A stretch of DNA of 38,450 bases from Muribaculaceae bacterium. Its GTDB lineage: Bacteria; Bacteroidota; Bacteroidia; Bacteroidales; G3-4614. The position numbers and the translations under genes are program-made. The stretch spans positions 77,574 to 116,023 of the forward strand of contig JAFYRT010000032.1 of assembly GCA_017546805.1 (NCBI GenBank), in the 5' to 3' direction. The notes below the pieces were generated by a model that searched no databases, was not told where the DNA came from, and worked only from the letters and a program-made list of their open reading frames with translations. The number at the start of each line of letters is the position of its first letter. Position 1 is the first letter of the stretch. Shown piece after piece: positions 2,949-36,978 of this stretch.

Positions 2949-3185
2949 ATGTAGTTTTTAGTTGTTAGTTTTTAGTTGTTAGTTAACGAGCCTTCGCTCG
3001 TTGAAGCCGCTCACGCTCAACAATACTCAAACAAGTTTGTCATTGTATTCGCTTACTCGCGGATTTGTTAGTTATTAATTAGTTTATATTTATTTCTGCG
3101 AAGATAATATTTTTTTTTCAGTTTTTAGTTAACACAATGGGGTAAATGAAGTTGTTATTAACAAACATTTTGTTTGTTGAAATAA

Positions 3186-3250
3186 CTAAGGGAATACCGC
3201 GCGGACATCAACTACCCCGTAGGGGCGGTTGAGTTTACGAAACCGAAAAC
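3186..3250 (-). pseudogene. Possible remnant of a second FSU-paralog (variable-region) gene end
   Basis: The minus-strand frame ends in DVRAVFP followed by TAG. It shares the block TGTCCGCGC with the intact lipoprotein 3' end (SVRAVCE, around 3385-3394). C-terminal SVRPV/VRAV endings are typical of Fibrobacter succinogenes major-paralog domains. Only about 20 codons are preserved, there is no start, and sequence upstream of it does not match the domain. It may be a decayed duplicate or chance. Confidence 0.3.
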
Positions 3251-3325
3251 TAAAAACTAACAAAGCCACGAATAAGCGAGTGCAAAGTTATACTTGCATA
3301 AACTTTGCCGAGCGTGAGTGGGTTC

Positions 3326-3343
3326 GAGAGATGAATATCTCTC
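3326..3343. repeat. Inverted repeat, 7-bp stem with 4-nt loop
   Basis: GAGAGAT and ATCTCTC flank a GAAT loop, read on the plus strand. This is the second of two hairpins downstream of the lipoprotein gene ending at 3373. No T-run follows on the minus strand, so it is a poor intrinsic terminator. See the DGR finding for another reading. Confidence 0.6.
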
Positions 3344-3348
3344 AACTG

Positions 3349-3372
3349 AATTAAATGCCATAGCATTTAATT
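3349..3372. repeat. Perfect 10-bp inverted repeat with 4-nt loop directly after the stop codon
   Basis: AATTAAATGC and GCATTTAATT enclose the loop CATA, abutting the stop codon of the lipoprotein gene at 3373-3375. The geometry (stem of 7-10 bp, loop of 4 nt, just downstream of a variable C-terminal coding region) matches the DNA hairpin/cruciform known to assist DGR retrohoming. It could instead be a weak terminator, but no T-tract follows on the minus strand. Confidence 0.7.
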
Positions 3373-4704
3373 TTACTCGCAAACTGCGCGGACAGATAGC
3401 CCGCTGTAACGGTTATAGTCGTTCCAGTCCACGTAGCTCGAATTGAAGACCAAGTAGCAGGCGTAGTAGCTGTCGTCCGTGCCGAGCGAACTCGACCTGT
3501 AGTAGCCGTAGTCGCCTGCACTGTAGAGACCGCCGTCGAGGCGACAGCCCGCCGCAGGAAGAAATATGGAGTTTCCGTTCTTTTTACTTGTTACTTTATA
3601 GCCTTTTACTCCGTTTTTAGTGGTCCAAGTCCAAGTGCAATTTGAGGTATTGCGTAATTCAGCTTGTTCTTCGCTTGTTGGCATTCGCCAATTGCCTCCC
3701 CAATTTACTCTCGCTGCATCGTCTGATAGTTGAAGTTTGGTTTTATTATCTACTGTGCCATAATATGAATTTACACAATATTTGGTCATTGAATATTTAT
3801 CACCATTACAATATTTGTAGGTGCTCCATTCGTATATTGTCTTTGGTGAGGTTTCGCCCCAAGCAAAGTAATCGCCGTAACCTTCGGGTGTGGTGGCTCC
3901 TACATTACAGGTTGCCCATTTTATTCCACTGGGCAAGCCAAGGTCAATATATTCGGGTATAAATTCCTCAAAATTTGCGACAAACTCTGTGTCTGCTGTT
4001 ATTGTTGCCGTATATGGATTCGCGGTTGATACTTCTGACCCGTTTACTGTCCAATTAACAAAACCATATCCGTCGTTGGGAGTAGCGGTGAGGGTTACCT
4101 TTCCGTTAGGTGCTAATTGCGTTTTATCCACTTTGGCTGTTCCGCCTTCGCTTGATACTACGGTTACTTTATGTGTGATAAAGTTAGCTTTAAACTCTGT
4201 ATTTGCTATTATTGTCGCTGTATATGGGTTCGCGGTTGAGACTTCCTCTCCGTTGACTGTCCAATTTACGAAACGGTAACCCTCTTGTGGTGTAGCTGTT
4301 AAGGTTACTTCTCCGTTATACCCTACTTCTGTTTTTGAGGCTTTGGCTGTTCCGCCCTCGCCTGCTGTTACTTTTATTGTATATATCTCTTTTTCAAAGT
4401 TTGCTCTAAATTGTGTGTTGCAAATTATTAATGCTGTATATGGGTTCTCTTTTGATACCTCTTTTCCTTCCACTGTCCAATTGACAAATCGGTAGCCTTC
4501 TTGTGGGGTGGCGGTTAAGGTTACTTCTCCGTTATACCCTACTTGTGTTTTTGAGGCTTTGGCTGTTCCGTATTCCATTGTCTCAAATGATACGGTGTAT
4601 GTTCCTAATGTGGGGTCAAAATTTGGATTACACGATATTAAACTAACTGATATTAATATTATAAGTATTCTTATAATGTGGGCGTAGTGTTTTATATTGT
4701 TCAT
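3373..4704 (-). CDS. Surface lipoprotein with three InlB-like repeats and a FSU-paralog C-terminal domain; possible DGR target
   Basis: A 443-residue predicted lipoprotein with lipobox LISC (Cys25). Residues about 36-103, 107-175 and 178-245 are three near-identical repeats (core GYRFVNWTVNGEEVS) of the Flg_new/InlB B-repeat type, a surface spacer. From about 251 the protein has the Fibrobacter succinogenes major-paralog domain (YIDLGLPSGIKWATCNVG, WRMPT, FLPAAG), a C-type-lectin-like fold. The last ~60 codons are far richer in G+C than the rest (58% by hand count over 3421-3540, against 28% over 3721-3780). They are dominated by xxC codons (GAC, TAC, AGC, GGC), as expected when AAC template codons are mutagenised. 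A cruciform-like hairpin follows. The lipoprotein assignment is good; the DGR assignment is inferred because no reverse transcriptase or template is in view. Confidence 0.85.
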   Translation of the reverse strand: MNNIKHYAHIIRILIILISVSLISCNPNFDPTLGTYTVSFETMEYGTAKASKTQVGYNGEVTLTATPQEGYRFVNWTVEGKEVSKENPYTALIICNTQFRANFEKEIYTIKVTAGEGGTAKASKTEVGYNGEVTLTATPQEGYRFVNWTVNGEEVSTANPYTATIIANTEFKANFITHKVTVVSSEGGTAKVDKTQLAPNGKVTLTATPNDGYGFVNWTVNGSEVSTANPYTATITADTEFVANFEEFIPEYIDLGLPSGIKWATCNVGATTPEGYGDYFAWGETSPKTIYEWSTYKYCNGDKYSMTKYCVNSYYGTVDNKTKLQLSDDAARVNWGGNWRMPTSEEQAELRNTSNCTWTWTTKNGVKGYKVTSKKNGNSIFLPAAGCRLDGGLYSAGDYGYYRSSSLGTDDSYYACYLVFNSSYVDWNDYNRYSGLSVRAVCE

Positions 4705-4865
4705 AATTATTTATTTTTTATAGTGTATGCAAATTGCGTTATTATTTATGCAAAATAATGTTATTTTTTTCAGATAAGCAAAGTAATGGCTGATAAAAGA
4801 GCAGATGTAAAAGGTGCTGTAAAAGATATTTATTTTAAAGTATATGCTATGTGCATATTTATGTG

Positions 4866-25934: not shown

Positions 25935-27641
25935 TTAATCTACATAATCTTGCATTCCAAAGTCTTTGCCCGAAGGACGAGTTACCATTTCAGGAGGTAA
26001 CACTTTCTCCACTTCAGGTTCAAGAGCGGCATTAATTCCATCGGCAAGAGTTTTAATAAATGCAACGCGACGTTGATCCATCATCCATACAAAGCACTCA
26101 ACTCGCATTGTAAATACATTCTCTGCAGTTATATAGTGAGCAATATTATCTTTGCTAACAGCATACCACTCATTCTTATCACAATTGTAGTCGTATGTCT
26201 TTTTAAGTTCTTCAGAAATGATATTATACAACTTATCGAACTTTTCAAAGTCTTTTACTCTACTCAATGGATCGTTATACGAATCGTCATGTTTTTTTGA
26301 GTTGTAGCAGAAATGCACTTGTTGAGGTCTTGAACGTGGTCCGATAGCACCCAAGAATGGAATTGCCCAACTTCCAGGTCGAGACGTCAAACGATTTATA
26401 TCATCAACAAAGAGTTTAAAATTAGGACACTCTTTAGCTGTAGATATATTATAATAAGATATAGTAGAGTTAGGATCAATCTCAACCTCTTTTGACACAT
26501 AGTTAAAGCCACCAATTTTTGCAATATGGTATGCCAACCATCCTGTACAAGGTTCGGTATGTCCCGAAGTACTTACTATTGTTACCTTTGAACCCCTGTC
26601 AATACAGCATCCATAAGGAGTGTTACGTTTATAGTTGATAATAACAATCTTATCTGTTTGACTATCCACAGCATTTGAAGCATTAGCCATATTGTATAGA
26701 TGCAGACAATCTGAAGCTTCAACAGCTTTTACCACATCTTCAGTTGTAAGGAATTTACGAGTAAGAACCGTATTTAAATCTTTATAACGAGGAACCACAA
26801 ACAGAGATGTATAGTGTTGATCTTTCTCAAACTTAAAAGAATGAACTATTCTCTTAATATTATTCTCAATCTCCTCTTTTTTGGCATCATCTTCCATAAT
26901 CTCGCTGAAGCCCGAACCTATAAGACCTGCAGGCACAGCAAAAATAGCAATTCCCAGAACACCTATTATAACTGCAATAACTCTTCCCACGAAAGTAATG
27001 GGTGGTGTATCGGCAAAGTTTCCGGGGTCACCAATGTATTGTGTAAATGCCCATACAACAGATGTCCATCCGTTATTATACACATCGGGTTGAGCATCGT
27101 GTTCAACAAAAAACAGAACGAATGATAGTATTAAAGTTACAATGGTAAGAAATTGTAATGAAACTACCATTTCATCTTTTTTAGACTTTACTACTCTCGA
27201 AAGCACGTTGAAAGCCTTCATGTAACGGAATATGCGCAATAGACGAGCAATACGGAATGCCTTTAATGCTACATAAGGAACTTGCATAAAGAAGTTTAAA
27301 TAGAATGGGAAGGTTGATATCATATCAATAAACCCATAAAATGAGAAGCAATATCTTATTCTACCCCAAAATCCTTTATACTTAGGGTCTATTAAATCAG
27401 CACACCATATTCTTAACGAAACCTCAATGGTAAACACCGCTGTAGTAACATAATCAATAATATGCAACCACTTACCATATTGTTCCACAATACCATCATA
27501 GGTTGAAAGGAACACCTCAAGGGTTGATATTAAAATCATTCCAATAATAACATAGTCAACAATGTTGTGCCACTGTTTTGTATGGAGTTTGTCATCAAAA
27601 ACTCTACTTAAATCTTGTTTAAACTTCTGAACCTTAGTCAT
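25935..27641 (-). CDS. Voltage-sensor ion channel with atypical pore and large cytosolic domain (paralog A)
   Basis: A 568-residue six-TM channel. S1 to S3 cover about residues 27-47, 59-80 and 97-119. S4 has regularly spaced positive charges at R130, R133, R136, R139 and K142. S5 is about 159-180, the pore loop WTSVVWAFTQYIGDPGN lies at 192-208, and S6 (IAVIIGVLGIAIFAVPAGLI) covers about 222-241. The S6 AVPAGLIGSGF motif resembles K+ channels, but the filter reads TQYIGD, not TVGYGD. Residues ~250-568 form a soluble domain with PYGCCIDRGSK, IGGFNYVSKEV and WMMDQRRVAFIKTLADG, not recognised as any known family. It sits downstream of paralog B. Ion selectivity cannot be assigned. Confidence 0.8.
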   Translation of the reverse strand: MTKVQKFKQDLSRVFDDKLHTKQWHNIVDYVIIGMILISTLEVFLSTYDGIVEQYGKWLHIIDYVTTAVFTIEVSLRIWCADLIDPKYKGFWGRIRYCFSFYGFIDMISTFPFYLNFFMQVPYVALKAFRIARLLRIFRYMKAFNVLSRVVKSKKDEMVVSLQFLTIVTLILSFVLFFVEHDAQPDVYNNGWTSVVWAFTQYIGDPGNFADTPPITFVGRVIAVIIGVLGIAIFAVPAGLIGSGFSEIMEDDAKKEEIENNIKRIVHSFKFEKDQHYTSLFVVPRYKDLNTVLTRKFLTTEDVVKAVEASDCLHLYNMANASNAVDSQTDKIVIINYKRNTPYGCCIDRGSKVTIVSTSGHTEPCTGWLAYHIAKIGGFNYVSKEVEIDPNSTISYYNISTAKECPNFKLFVDDINRLTSRPGSWAIPFLGAIGPRSRPQQVHFCYNSKKHDDSYNDPLSRVKDFEKFDKLYNIISEELKKTYDYNCDKNEWYAVSKDNIAHYITAENVFTMRVECFVWMMDQRRVAFIKTLADGINAALEPEVEKVLPPEMVTRPSGKDFGMQDYVD

Positions 27642-27764
27642 AATTCTATTTTCTATTAATCTTTACCTTTTTTTTTGCCAACCATATTTTATCTGCACTT
27701 ATTTCAATTGAATCATGTATAAATGACTCAACAATCTCACCTTGTTTATCTATTTTACCCCATT

Positions 27765-27782
27765 TACCATTCAATCATGGTA
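27765..27782. repeat. Inverted repeat in the gap between the channel genes
   Basis: TACCAT and ATGGTA enclose a 6-nt loop (TCAATC), partly extended by CCA/TGG. It lies in the 172-nt gap upstream of paralog A. It could be an operator or an mRNA hairpin. Confidence 0.35.
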
Positions 27783-27813
27783 TGGAGAAACTAATACATT
27801 ACCATTTTATCTA

Positions 27814-29511
27814 TTAATATCCACTCTTTTTAATTTTTAAATCGGGAGTATATTCTTTTACAACATCCGATTCAAAGTGACGGTTAAGCGCATCTGCAAT
27901 AGTTTTTGCAATTGCTATGCGGCGTGAATCCCAAAGACAAGCACTCCAAGCAGTACGCAAAATAATGTTGTTACGACTACCTTTGCCCTCCTCAAACTTA
28001 CGAACATAAAGGTTAGGCATAGTACCATTGTGATATCTTTGATGATCTGAAGCCATTCCAAACTTATCTAATAATTCTGCAGTTACATCTTCATAGAATT
28101 TGCGATATGCTGCTGTATCCTGCACTACTAAGTTTTCACCTTCAAAACTCTCATCACCCTTAGCACCACCAATTGTGAAGTGGAATATTGTTGGATAAGC
28201 AGGTTCGTTTGCACCGCTTGCTACAATCGAAGTTAAAGTCCAACTACCATCTCTTGAGGTTAGTCTCTCTAAATCCTCCATAAACAAAGGAAGATTCTCT
28301 TCATGATTATATCTATCAGCAAAAGTGTAATACGAACGATATGGGCGCATTACTCCAACCTCTCTACTTATGTAGTTAAAGCCTCCGATAAGAGCAATAT
28401 AATAAGAGAAACTACCTATACATGGGTCTATAAAACTTGATGTTGCAACAATAGTAATTTTTGAACCTCTATCAATACAACAACCATAAGGACGGTTTAC
28501 AATAAAGTGCTCTACTGCAAGTTTATCTTGTGGATGCTCATCAATAGTTTGTGTCATTGCAAGATTAATTATACGAAATTGATTACTCGCTTGAACTGCA
28601 TCAAAAATTTCATCCTCTTTCAAACCTATTCTTGCTTGAATATCATAGAATGATAAATAGGGAGGAAGAACTTGAAAAGTTGTTGGTCTGTCCAATTTTC
28701 TTTCATAAACAATTTTTAATTTTTCAATGTTATTAGCAATACTCTCCTGTTTAACATCCTCTTCCATGATTTCGCTGAATCCAGAACCAATAAGACCTGC
28801 AGGTACAGCAAAAATAGCAATTCCTAAAACACCAATTATTACAGCTATCATTCTTCCAGCGAATGTAATTGGTGGTGTATCGGCAAAGTTTCCGGGGTCA
28901 CCAATGTATTGTGTAAATGCCCATACAACAGATGTCCATCCGTTATTATAGACATCGGGTTGAGCATCGTGTTCAACAAAAAACAGAACGAATGATAGTA
29001 TTAAAGTTACAATGGTAAGAAATTGTAATGAAACTACCATTTCATCTTTTTTAGATTTTACTACTCTCGAAAGCACGTTGAAAGCCTTCATGTAACGGAA
29101 TATGCGCAATAGTCGAGCTATACGGAATGCCTTTAATGCTACATAAGGAACTTGCATAAAGAAGTTTAAATAGAATGGGAAGGTTGATATCATATCAATA
29201 AACCCATAAAATGAGAAGCAATATCTTATTCTACCCCAAAATCCTTTATACTTAGGATCTATTAAATCAGCACACCATATTCTTAATATAACCTCAACCG
29301 TAAATACCGCAGTTGTTACATAATCCACAATATGCAACCACTTACCATATTGTTCCACAATACCATCATAGGTTGAAAGGAACACCTCTATGGTTGATAT
29401 TAAAATCATTCCTATAATGAGATAATCAACAATATTATGCCACTGTTTGGTGTGTAGATTATCATCAAACACATTGTTTAGTTCGCTCCTAAATTTCTCT
29501 GTCTTTGTCAT
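27814..29511 (-). CDS. Voltage-sensor ion channel with atypical pore and large cytosolic domain (paralog B)
   Basis: A 565-residue paralog of the next gene downstream. Residues 1-250, from S1 through S6, are almost identical between the two, including S4 and the TQYIGDPGN pore. The C-terminal ~315 residues diverge strongly but keep PYGCCIDRGSK, IGGFNYISREV, DLERLTSR and CLWDSRRIAIAKTIADALN. The domain therefore belongs to the same unnamed family and may sense a different signal. It is 48 nt downstream of the outer-membrane protein gene with no evident promoter between. DNA identity with paralog A is sharply uneven. Confidence 0.8.
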   Translation of the reverse strand: MTKTEKFRSELNNVFDDNLHTKQWHNIVDYLIIGMILISTIEVFLSTYDGIVEQYGKWLHIVDYVTTAVFTVEVILRIWCADLIDPKYKGFWGRIRYCFSFYGFIDMISTFPFYLNFFMQVPYVALKAFRIARLLRIFRYMKAFNVLSRVVKSKKDEMVVSLQFLTIVTLILSFVLFFVEHDAQPDVYNNGWTSVVWAFTQYIGDPGNFADTPPITFAGRMIAVIIGVLGIAIFAVPAGLIGSGFSEIMEEDVKQESIANNIEKLKIVYERKLDRPTTFQVLPPYLSFYDIQARIGLKEDEIFDAVQASNQFRIINLAMTQTIDEHPQDKLAVEHFIVNRPYGCCIDRGSKITIVATSSFIDPCIGSFSYYIALIGGFNYISREVGVMRPYRSYYTFADRYNHEENLPLFMEDLERLTSRDGSWTLTSIVASGANEPAYPTIFHFTIGGAKGDESFEGENLVVQDTAAYRKFYEDVTAELLDKFGMASDHQRYHNGTMPNLYVRKFEEGKGSRNNIILRTAWSACLWDSRRIAIAKTIADALNRHFESDVVKEYTPDLKIKKSGY

Positions 29512-36225: not shown

Positions 36226-36543
36226 TTATTCTTTACCTGCAGCTGTTAAAGTGATGCTGTTGTCAGCAAGTTTGCTATCGTCAGCATTTGCTACTTGTAC
36301 TCCGATTCCATACATTTCAGCAACTTTTTTCTCGAAGTTACCTACTTGCATGTTACCTTTTACTACAAGTTCACCACCTTTAGCTCCTTCACCACGGATT
36401 GATGCTAGTGTTGCATCTTCGTCAGCGAAAGCTCCTTTACATGATACTGCTTTGTACACGCGTAGTGTTGCACCAAAATTCTTTTTGAAATTAGCCTTTA
36501 AAGTTTTTACTTTTGTGCGGCCGTCTAATGAAAAATCTGCCAT
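36226..36543 (-). CDS. Small paralogous protein B, unnamed family
   Basis: A 105-residue protein with no signal peptide or membrane span. Conserved blocks are TLKANFKKNFGATLRVYK (about residues 14-31), ELVVKGNMQVGNFEKKVAEM (about 54-73) and GIGVQVANADDSKLADNSITL (about 75-95). These align with the neighbouring 120-residue protein (TISADFKKSFNLSLIFYK, KIKASMKVGAAEKLF, VTVQIKDAKGTKLVPNEITI), so they are paralogs. I recall similar small proteins in other gut bacteria but know no function. Confidence 0.75.
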   Translation of the reverse strand: MADFSLDGRTKVKTLKANFKKNFGATLRVYKAVSCKGAFADEDATLASIRGEGAKGGELVVKGNMQVGNFEKKVAEMYGIGVQVANADDSKLADNSITLTAAGKE

Positions 36544-36615
36544 AATTTTTTTGTTTTAAATGGTTAGTTAATTGGTTAATAGATTATTTAAAGTTATAAT
36601 TGTTATATATTATTC

Positions 36616-36978
36616 TTAATACTCGCCTCGTGCTGCTTGTCCTATTGTTATTTCATTAGGTACAAGTTTTGTTCCTTTAGCATCTTTTATTTGCACTGTT
36701 ACTCCAAAGTTTGTGTCAAATAGCTTTTCTGCTGCTCCTACTTTCATGCTGGCCTTGATTTTTAAGCCGTCGGCTTTTGAGTTTACATCTTTGGTTGTTT
36801 TTTTATTCAATGCTGCAAGTGTTAACTCTCCATCTGCTATTTGCGCTCCTTTGTAGAATATTAGCGATAGATTGAATGATTTTTTGAAATCTGCTGAAAT
36901 TGTTTTTAACTTTTTGTTTGGTGCTACTGTAAATTCAGCATTCTTAAAATTGTCTAATAGATTGTTTAATAGTCCCAT
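36616..36978 (-). CDS. Small paralogous protein A, unnamed family
   Basis: A 120-residue protein, paralog of the next gene downstream (see its shared blocks). It has an extra N-terminal ~17 residues (MGLLNNLLDNFKNAEF) that could form an amphipathic helix. It starts 22 nt after the OmpA-like gene, which suggests one transcript and a functional link with that membrane protein. The fold is likely small and beta-rich by the alternating pattern; the function is unknown. Confidence 0.75.
   Translation of the reverse strand: MGLLNNLLDNFKNAEFTVAPNKKLKTISADFKKSFNLSLIFYKGAQIADGELTLAALNKKTTKDVNSKADGLKIKASMKVGAAEKLFDTNFGVTVQIKDAKGTKLVPNEITIGQAARGEY

Follow-up and report, generated by a model that had tools for sequence, protein, structure and literature searches.

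In Treponema denticola, a diversity-generating retroelement (DGR) with TvpA-type targets has one core, which in the type strain serves up to seven or so dispersed lipoprotein targets of C-type-lectin fold. Templates of two types are present, and some isolates keep targets without the core (PMC4891356). Thiohalocapsa PB-PSB1 carries 15 target genes with 21 variable regions (VRs) and nine DGR loci, where loci lacking a reverse transcriptase (RT) are served in trans and targets have spread by duplication (PMC10907252). DUF1566 and Fib_succ_major domains are common gut DGR targets, lipoproteins among them (PMC4159848), and DGR fimbriae of Bacteroides are treated in a paper cited in PMC12632263. 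The DGR of Bordetella phage BPP-1 transfers sequence from a template repeat (TR) to the C-terminal VR of a phage tail fibre by adenine mutagenesis, with its core in cis (PMC3240598). Metagenome surveys of DGRs search near the RT and, by their own account, miss remote targets (PMC8144416).

Here we describe a gene in a 38,450-nucleotide stretch of a Muribaculaceae draft genome (the window) that is almost certainly a remote DGR target, its VR having been written by adenine mutagenesis from a shared template. It resembles the T. denticola system in the features listed above, but differs from it in that at least 16 VRs occur in one Bacteroidales genome, the lectin domain is Lcl_C/FISUMP-like and no core is assembled. 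The gut DUF1566 and Fib_succ_major targets form a closely comparable domain class, known there from metagenome contigs and found here as a fleet dispersed over the genome. Many targets, RT-less loci that appear to be served in trans and spread by duplication are shared with Thiohalocapsa PB-PSB1, whereas its targets belong to conflict systems and those described here are predicted surface lectins with no local core. The likeness to BPP-1 lies in the mutagenic transfer and the C-terminal position of the VR. The mechanism is already known; what stands out is how large the fleet is and that no assembled core accompanies it. The features of the locus are as follows.

3373-4704, minus strand: proposed DGR target gene, an ORF of 443 aa encoding a predicted surface lipoprotein.
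4630-4704, minus strand: lipoprotein signal peptide with an LISC lipobox, a lipobox-like start recognized by eye from the sequence.
3970-4611 (limits approximate), minus strand: three divergent InlB-type B-repeats (Flg_new_2; PF18998, E 1.2e-35, 3 stretches).
3376-3963, minus strand: C-terminal domain of ~190 residues with a predicted C-type-lectin fold, Lcl_C/FISUMP-like.
3379-3564, minus strand: VR of ~186 bases, 62 codons running from FLPAAG to SVRAVC, delimited by comparison of VR copies.
3349-3372, minus strand: perfect 10-bp hairpin with a TATG loop, abutting the stop codon.
3326-3343, minus strand: second hairpin, GAGAGAT-ATTC-ATCTCTC, common to the flanks of other VR genes.
3128-4800, no strand assigned: segment containing the target gene and missing at the matching site in four sister species, a species-specific gain.

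The lipobox suggests that the protein would be displayed on the cell surface, with the B-repeats probably serving as a stalk. A first-pass annotation of the DNA had picked out the last ~180 coding bases as GC-rich and rich in NNC codons, and the composition bears this out: their GC content is 0.60, where the remainder of the gene has 0.40 and the window 0.37, and no other 180-base stretch in the whole 38 kb is richer. The encoded C-terminal end is FNSSYVDWNDYNRYSGLSVRAVCE, in which NNC codons are abundant.

The same annotation had likened this end to C-type lectins, a reading that holds by fold. The AlphaFold2 model of the C-terminal domain has a mean pLDDT of 97 and was built on an alignment of 55 sequences; it supersedes a first model from a shallow alignment, which was poor and gave no fold matches. 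Several sequences with in-frame stops were left out of alignments. The best structural match is the C-terminal domain of Legionella Lcl (8q4e; Z 7.5 over 102 residues, rmsd 2.7), and C-type lectins rank next. A Foldseek search with the domain model gave no match at E <= 0.001, and the experimentally characterized DGR targets TvpA and Mtd were absent among the fold matches, which still leaves room for a common fold. Profile scores fall below the curated cut-offs both for Pfam Lcl_C (PF07603; 18.0 bits, cut-off 34.9) and for NCBIfam FISUMP (TIGR02145; 17.7 bits, cut-off 41.65), and Lcl_C matched weakly in 28 of 30 family members. The domain is therefore a relative of the Lcl_C/FISUMP families and is not filed as a member. 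The predicted fold places the VR within a C-type-lectin-type domain, and on this basis the domain may bind a ligand.

The VR has at least 16 matches in its own draft genome (75 contigs, 96.6% complete), dispersed over many contigs; 15 are complete, and the sixteenth is truncated where contig C43 ends. In a codon alignment of the 15 complete VRs, NNC and NNT codons are variable at their first two bases, with the third base nearly fixed within each column. Averaged over 26 variable codons, the share of the commonest base rises from 52% at the first codon position to 61% at the second and 91% at the third; over 69 conserved codons upstream, the third-position share is 76%. Variation at the first two bases also extends to ATG (seen as TTG/GTG/ATG) and CAA (CTA/CGA). 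The variable sites lie in a binding-type domain and alter amino acids, as ordinary diversifying selection on the lectin binding face, with no DGR involved, would produce. However, third bases that are frozen in the variable codons and drift in the neighbouring conserved ones speak against it, because selection on function would not fix the wobble base only at codons where the amino acid changes; the variation of ATG argues in the same direction.

The VRs are also more alike than the genes that carry them. Just upstream of the VR, in the same domain, divergence among the genome's paralogs is ~22% and reaches 37% at third positions, as against 2-5% at non-adenine sites among the four freshest VRs of haplotype I. 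By this comparison of sequences, the similarity of the VRs reflects copying from a template, not gene duplication. The last five codons differ in their wobble bases even among freshly homed copies, so the copied tract spans ~3394-3564, with its 3' transfer limit near 3394. Linked differences at non-adenine sites define two haplotypes, GCT..GCG..GTA and GCG..GCA..GTG, and at least two template versions have therefore served the fleet. The VR of locus L009 is a mosaic joining both haplotypes. This mosaic, together with the many paralogs and a slight excess of pairs with four consecutive variable codons in common (8 against 3.1 expected, P 0.02), would fit gene conversion or domain shuffling among paralogs as the source of the diversity. 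Yet the longest common run is only those four codons, not above that in shuffled columns, long shared blocks are absent, and conversion leaves the adenine specificity described below unexplained; we regard this origin as very unlikely. Separately, in-frame insertions of 2-4 codons occur in the VRs at L083 (about 806-1000), L089 (698-895) and L088 (1501-1698); one is a tandem GDY duplication, and they look like copying slippage.

A template query was built from the genome's own VR copies alone, with A set at the variable positions, and searched against 149 genomes comprising the own genome and relatives. The two top matches, G004:C92:18637-18819 (94%) and G002:C5:181509-181691 (90%), both adjoin DGR RTs in Bacteroidales metagenome-assembled genomes (G002, SIG122; G004, RGIG9119, from water deer rectum). 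In G002 the template lies between an accessory ORF and an RT of 384 aa, which is RVT_1 positive, close to the phage RT family phrog_1423 and carries the motifs IGNLTSQ and YVDD, corresponding to the DGR RT pattern (I/V/L)GxxxSQ plus YxDD (PMC3521204). Gene order in G004 is the same, with the RT cut by the contig end, so that the core in these sister species reads target, accessory protein, TR, RT. The accessory ORF between target and TR (181-187 aa; L107 3859-4422 and L108 7937-8482) has a weak match to MutS domain I and is not an obvious Avd. An ORF that looks integrase-like by eye (L108 2593-3792) lies upstream of the DGR target gene of G004, ~2.9 kb away, and the start of the own contig C1 matches it at 74% DNA identity. 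In a viral collection, seven contigs carry target, TR and RT with the same target domain, showing 15-25 adenine changes compared with 0-3 at other bases. Scans of viral contigs with single-protein queries gave no relatives for the RT and two distant relatives for the target-domain protein.

Differences between VR and TR are concentrated at template adenines in both sister species, including for VRs on other contigs (overall 20-35 of 53-56 adenines versus 0-4 of 130-133 other bases). The cognate VR of G002 differs from its TR at 20/53 adenines and 0/133 other bases, and its remote VRs at 23/53 and 22/53 adenines with 1/133 others each; in G004 the cognate VR differs at 29/56 adenines and 0/130 others, the remote VRs at 27-35/56 and 1-4/130. 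The window VR nearly repeats these two sister templates at the 3' end of its gene and shows the same bias. Against the G004 TR, the 94% match, 30/56 adenines and 12/130 other bases are changed (Fisher 2.1e-10), and against the G002 TR 28/53 and 21/133 (6.3e-7). Across all 15 own VRs, 53% of adenine cells are changed relative to the G004 TR, compared with 8-15% for the other bases. Against an inferred own template, the window VR differs at 37/66 adenines and 1/84 others; such per-copy counts are supportive and not independent, because the own templates were inferred partly from those VRs. Of the 34 TR codons with an adenine, not one could be turned into a stop codon by adenine mutation.

Since the changes match the adenines of a template that sister species supplied independently, we consider diversifying selection extremely improbable as the source of the pattern. 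These alignments establish both the mutagenesis of adenines and the copying from a common template, and the proposal of the first-pass annotation that the gene is a DGR target altered by mutagenesis of AAC-type codons thus gains the codon pattern, the sister templates and the adenine-biased differences in its favour. In the mechanism we propose, a template RNA rich in AAC, AAT and TAC codons would be reverse-transcribed by an error-prone DGR RT that puts random bases opposite template adenines, and the cDNA would replace the last ~171-186 bases of the window gene. This would randomize the putative ligand-binding end of a lipid-anchored protein with a C-type-lectin fold and create no stop codons. 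The core responsible would either lie in an assembly gap or have been recently lost.

The perfect 10-bp hairpin with a 4-nt loop that had been noted at the stop codon is indeed present at 3349-3372, as AATTAAATGC-TATG-GCATTTAATT. Stems of >=10 bp arise in ~0.1% of random 60-mers from the window, and a post-stop stem of >=9 bp follows 2 of the 36 other window genes. The hairpin resembles the required element of BPP-1 in its position just 3' of the VR and its 4-nt loop; in contrast to the GC-rich stem and GRNA loop there (PMC3240598), its stem is A+T-rich and its TATG loop does not follow the 5'-GRNA consensus. Several recently homed VR copies have no hairpin at all.

Segment 3128-4800 is absent at the equivalent site in G001, G002, G005 and G006, so the species split preceded the gain of the target gene. 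The end of the own contig C47 holds a 92% copy of the gene's N-terminal part. Other repeats and paralogs occur in the window. At 2960-3080, intergenic repeats with TTAGTTTTTAGTTGTTAG... and GAGCCTTCGCTC hairpins number dozens of copies across most genomes of the genus, at identities of 76-92%; two tandem potassium-channel-like paralogs of ~565 aa at 25935-29511 have near-identical membrane halves and divergent C-termini; and two small paralogs of 105 and 120 aa (SADFKK..., ANFKKNF...) are adjacent at 36226-36978.

Action in trans is inferred from the lack of a core near the window gene, which supports one part of an earlier claim, that a remote RT drives this target. The other part, an RT elsewhere in the same genome, found no counterpart: the own draft yielded no RVT_1 or sister-RT match, no TR and no accessory gene. 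The genome search suggested at the time for both RT and template thus came back empty in this draft and successful in G002 and G004. It is possible, and we hold it at somewhat over a third likely, that a DGR made the VRs and its core has since been lost, leaving the targets frozen. This would agree with the missing core genes in a 96.6% complete assembly and with the own genome's counterpart of the G002 core site, which is cleanly empty (C25:42589|42603). It would also agree with G001 (RGIG7307, a Bacteroidales genome from water buffalo cecum), the closest sister at the window locus, where the core has decayed to a truncated accessory ORF and an RT without its N-terminus, the TR being missing, and with G006 (99% complete), which has VRs and in which no DGR RT was found. 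A load of 6-12 non-adenine changes in some own VRs is likewise what a lack of recent homing would produce.

The freshest own VRs, the window VR included, point the other way, with 0-2 non-adenine changes per 84-90 sites, whereas 18% of third positions in a neighbouring gene differ between the own genome and G001. Homing was therefore recent, well after the split from G001, and any loss of the core must likewise be recent. Moreover, the assemblies break at just these repeats, C43 inside a VR, C47 inside a target gene and G004 at its RT, which makes an unassembled core likely. We accordingly lean modestly towards an assembly gap over recent loss. Two candidates for the missing core were rejected. 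An RT in G006 (C14; L110 13586-14923), on a contig syntenic to the window, does not match the DGR RT and by eye has QGSPLSP where the SQ motif would be expected; it lies 3' of recQ and looks retron-like by eye, and the window has no RT there. The own contig C51 stops 160 bp beyond the G001 core flank, and the sequence at its end shows no alignment to the RT region.

The cores of G001, G002 and G004 sit in three different neighbourhoods. Across the genus, we tentatively suggest, as a doubtful reading that may well prove wrong, that the DGR core travels, so that its chromosomal site changes from species to species, and decays, and that a resident and expanding fleet of surface-lectin genes outlives it, being rewritten in trans at times when a core is there. 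The remote target was recognized by sequence alone, and a template rebuilt from scattered copies led to the true core in sister species. The case is that of a gut Bacteroidales genome in which at least 16 segments have been diversified and whose assembly lacks a core. The fate of targets after core loss thereby becomes directly testable. If the core does travel while the fleet lasts, some species would live on a frozen, pre-diversified repertoire.
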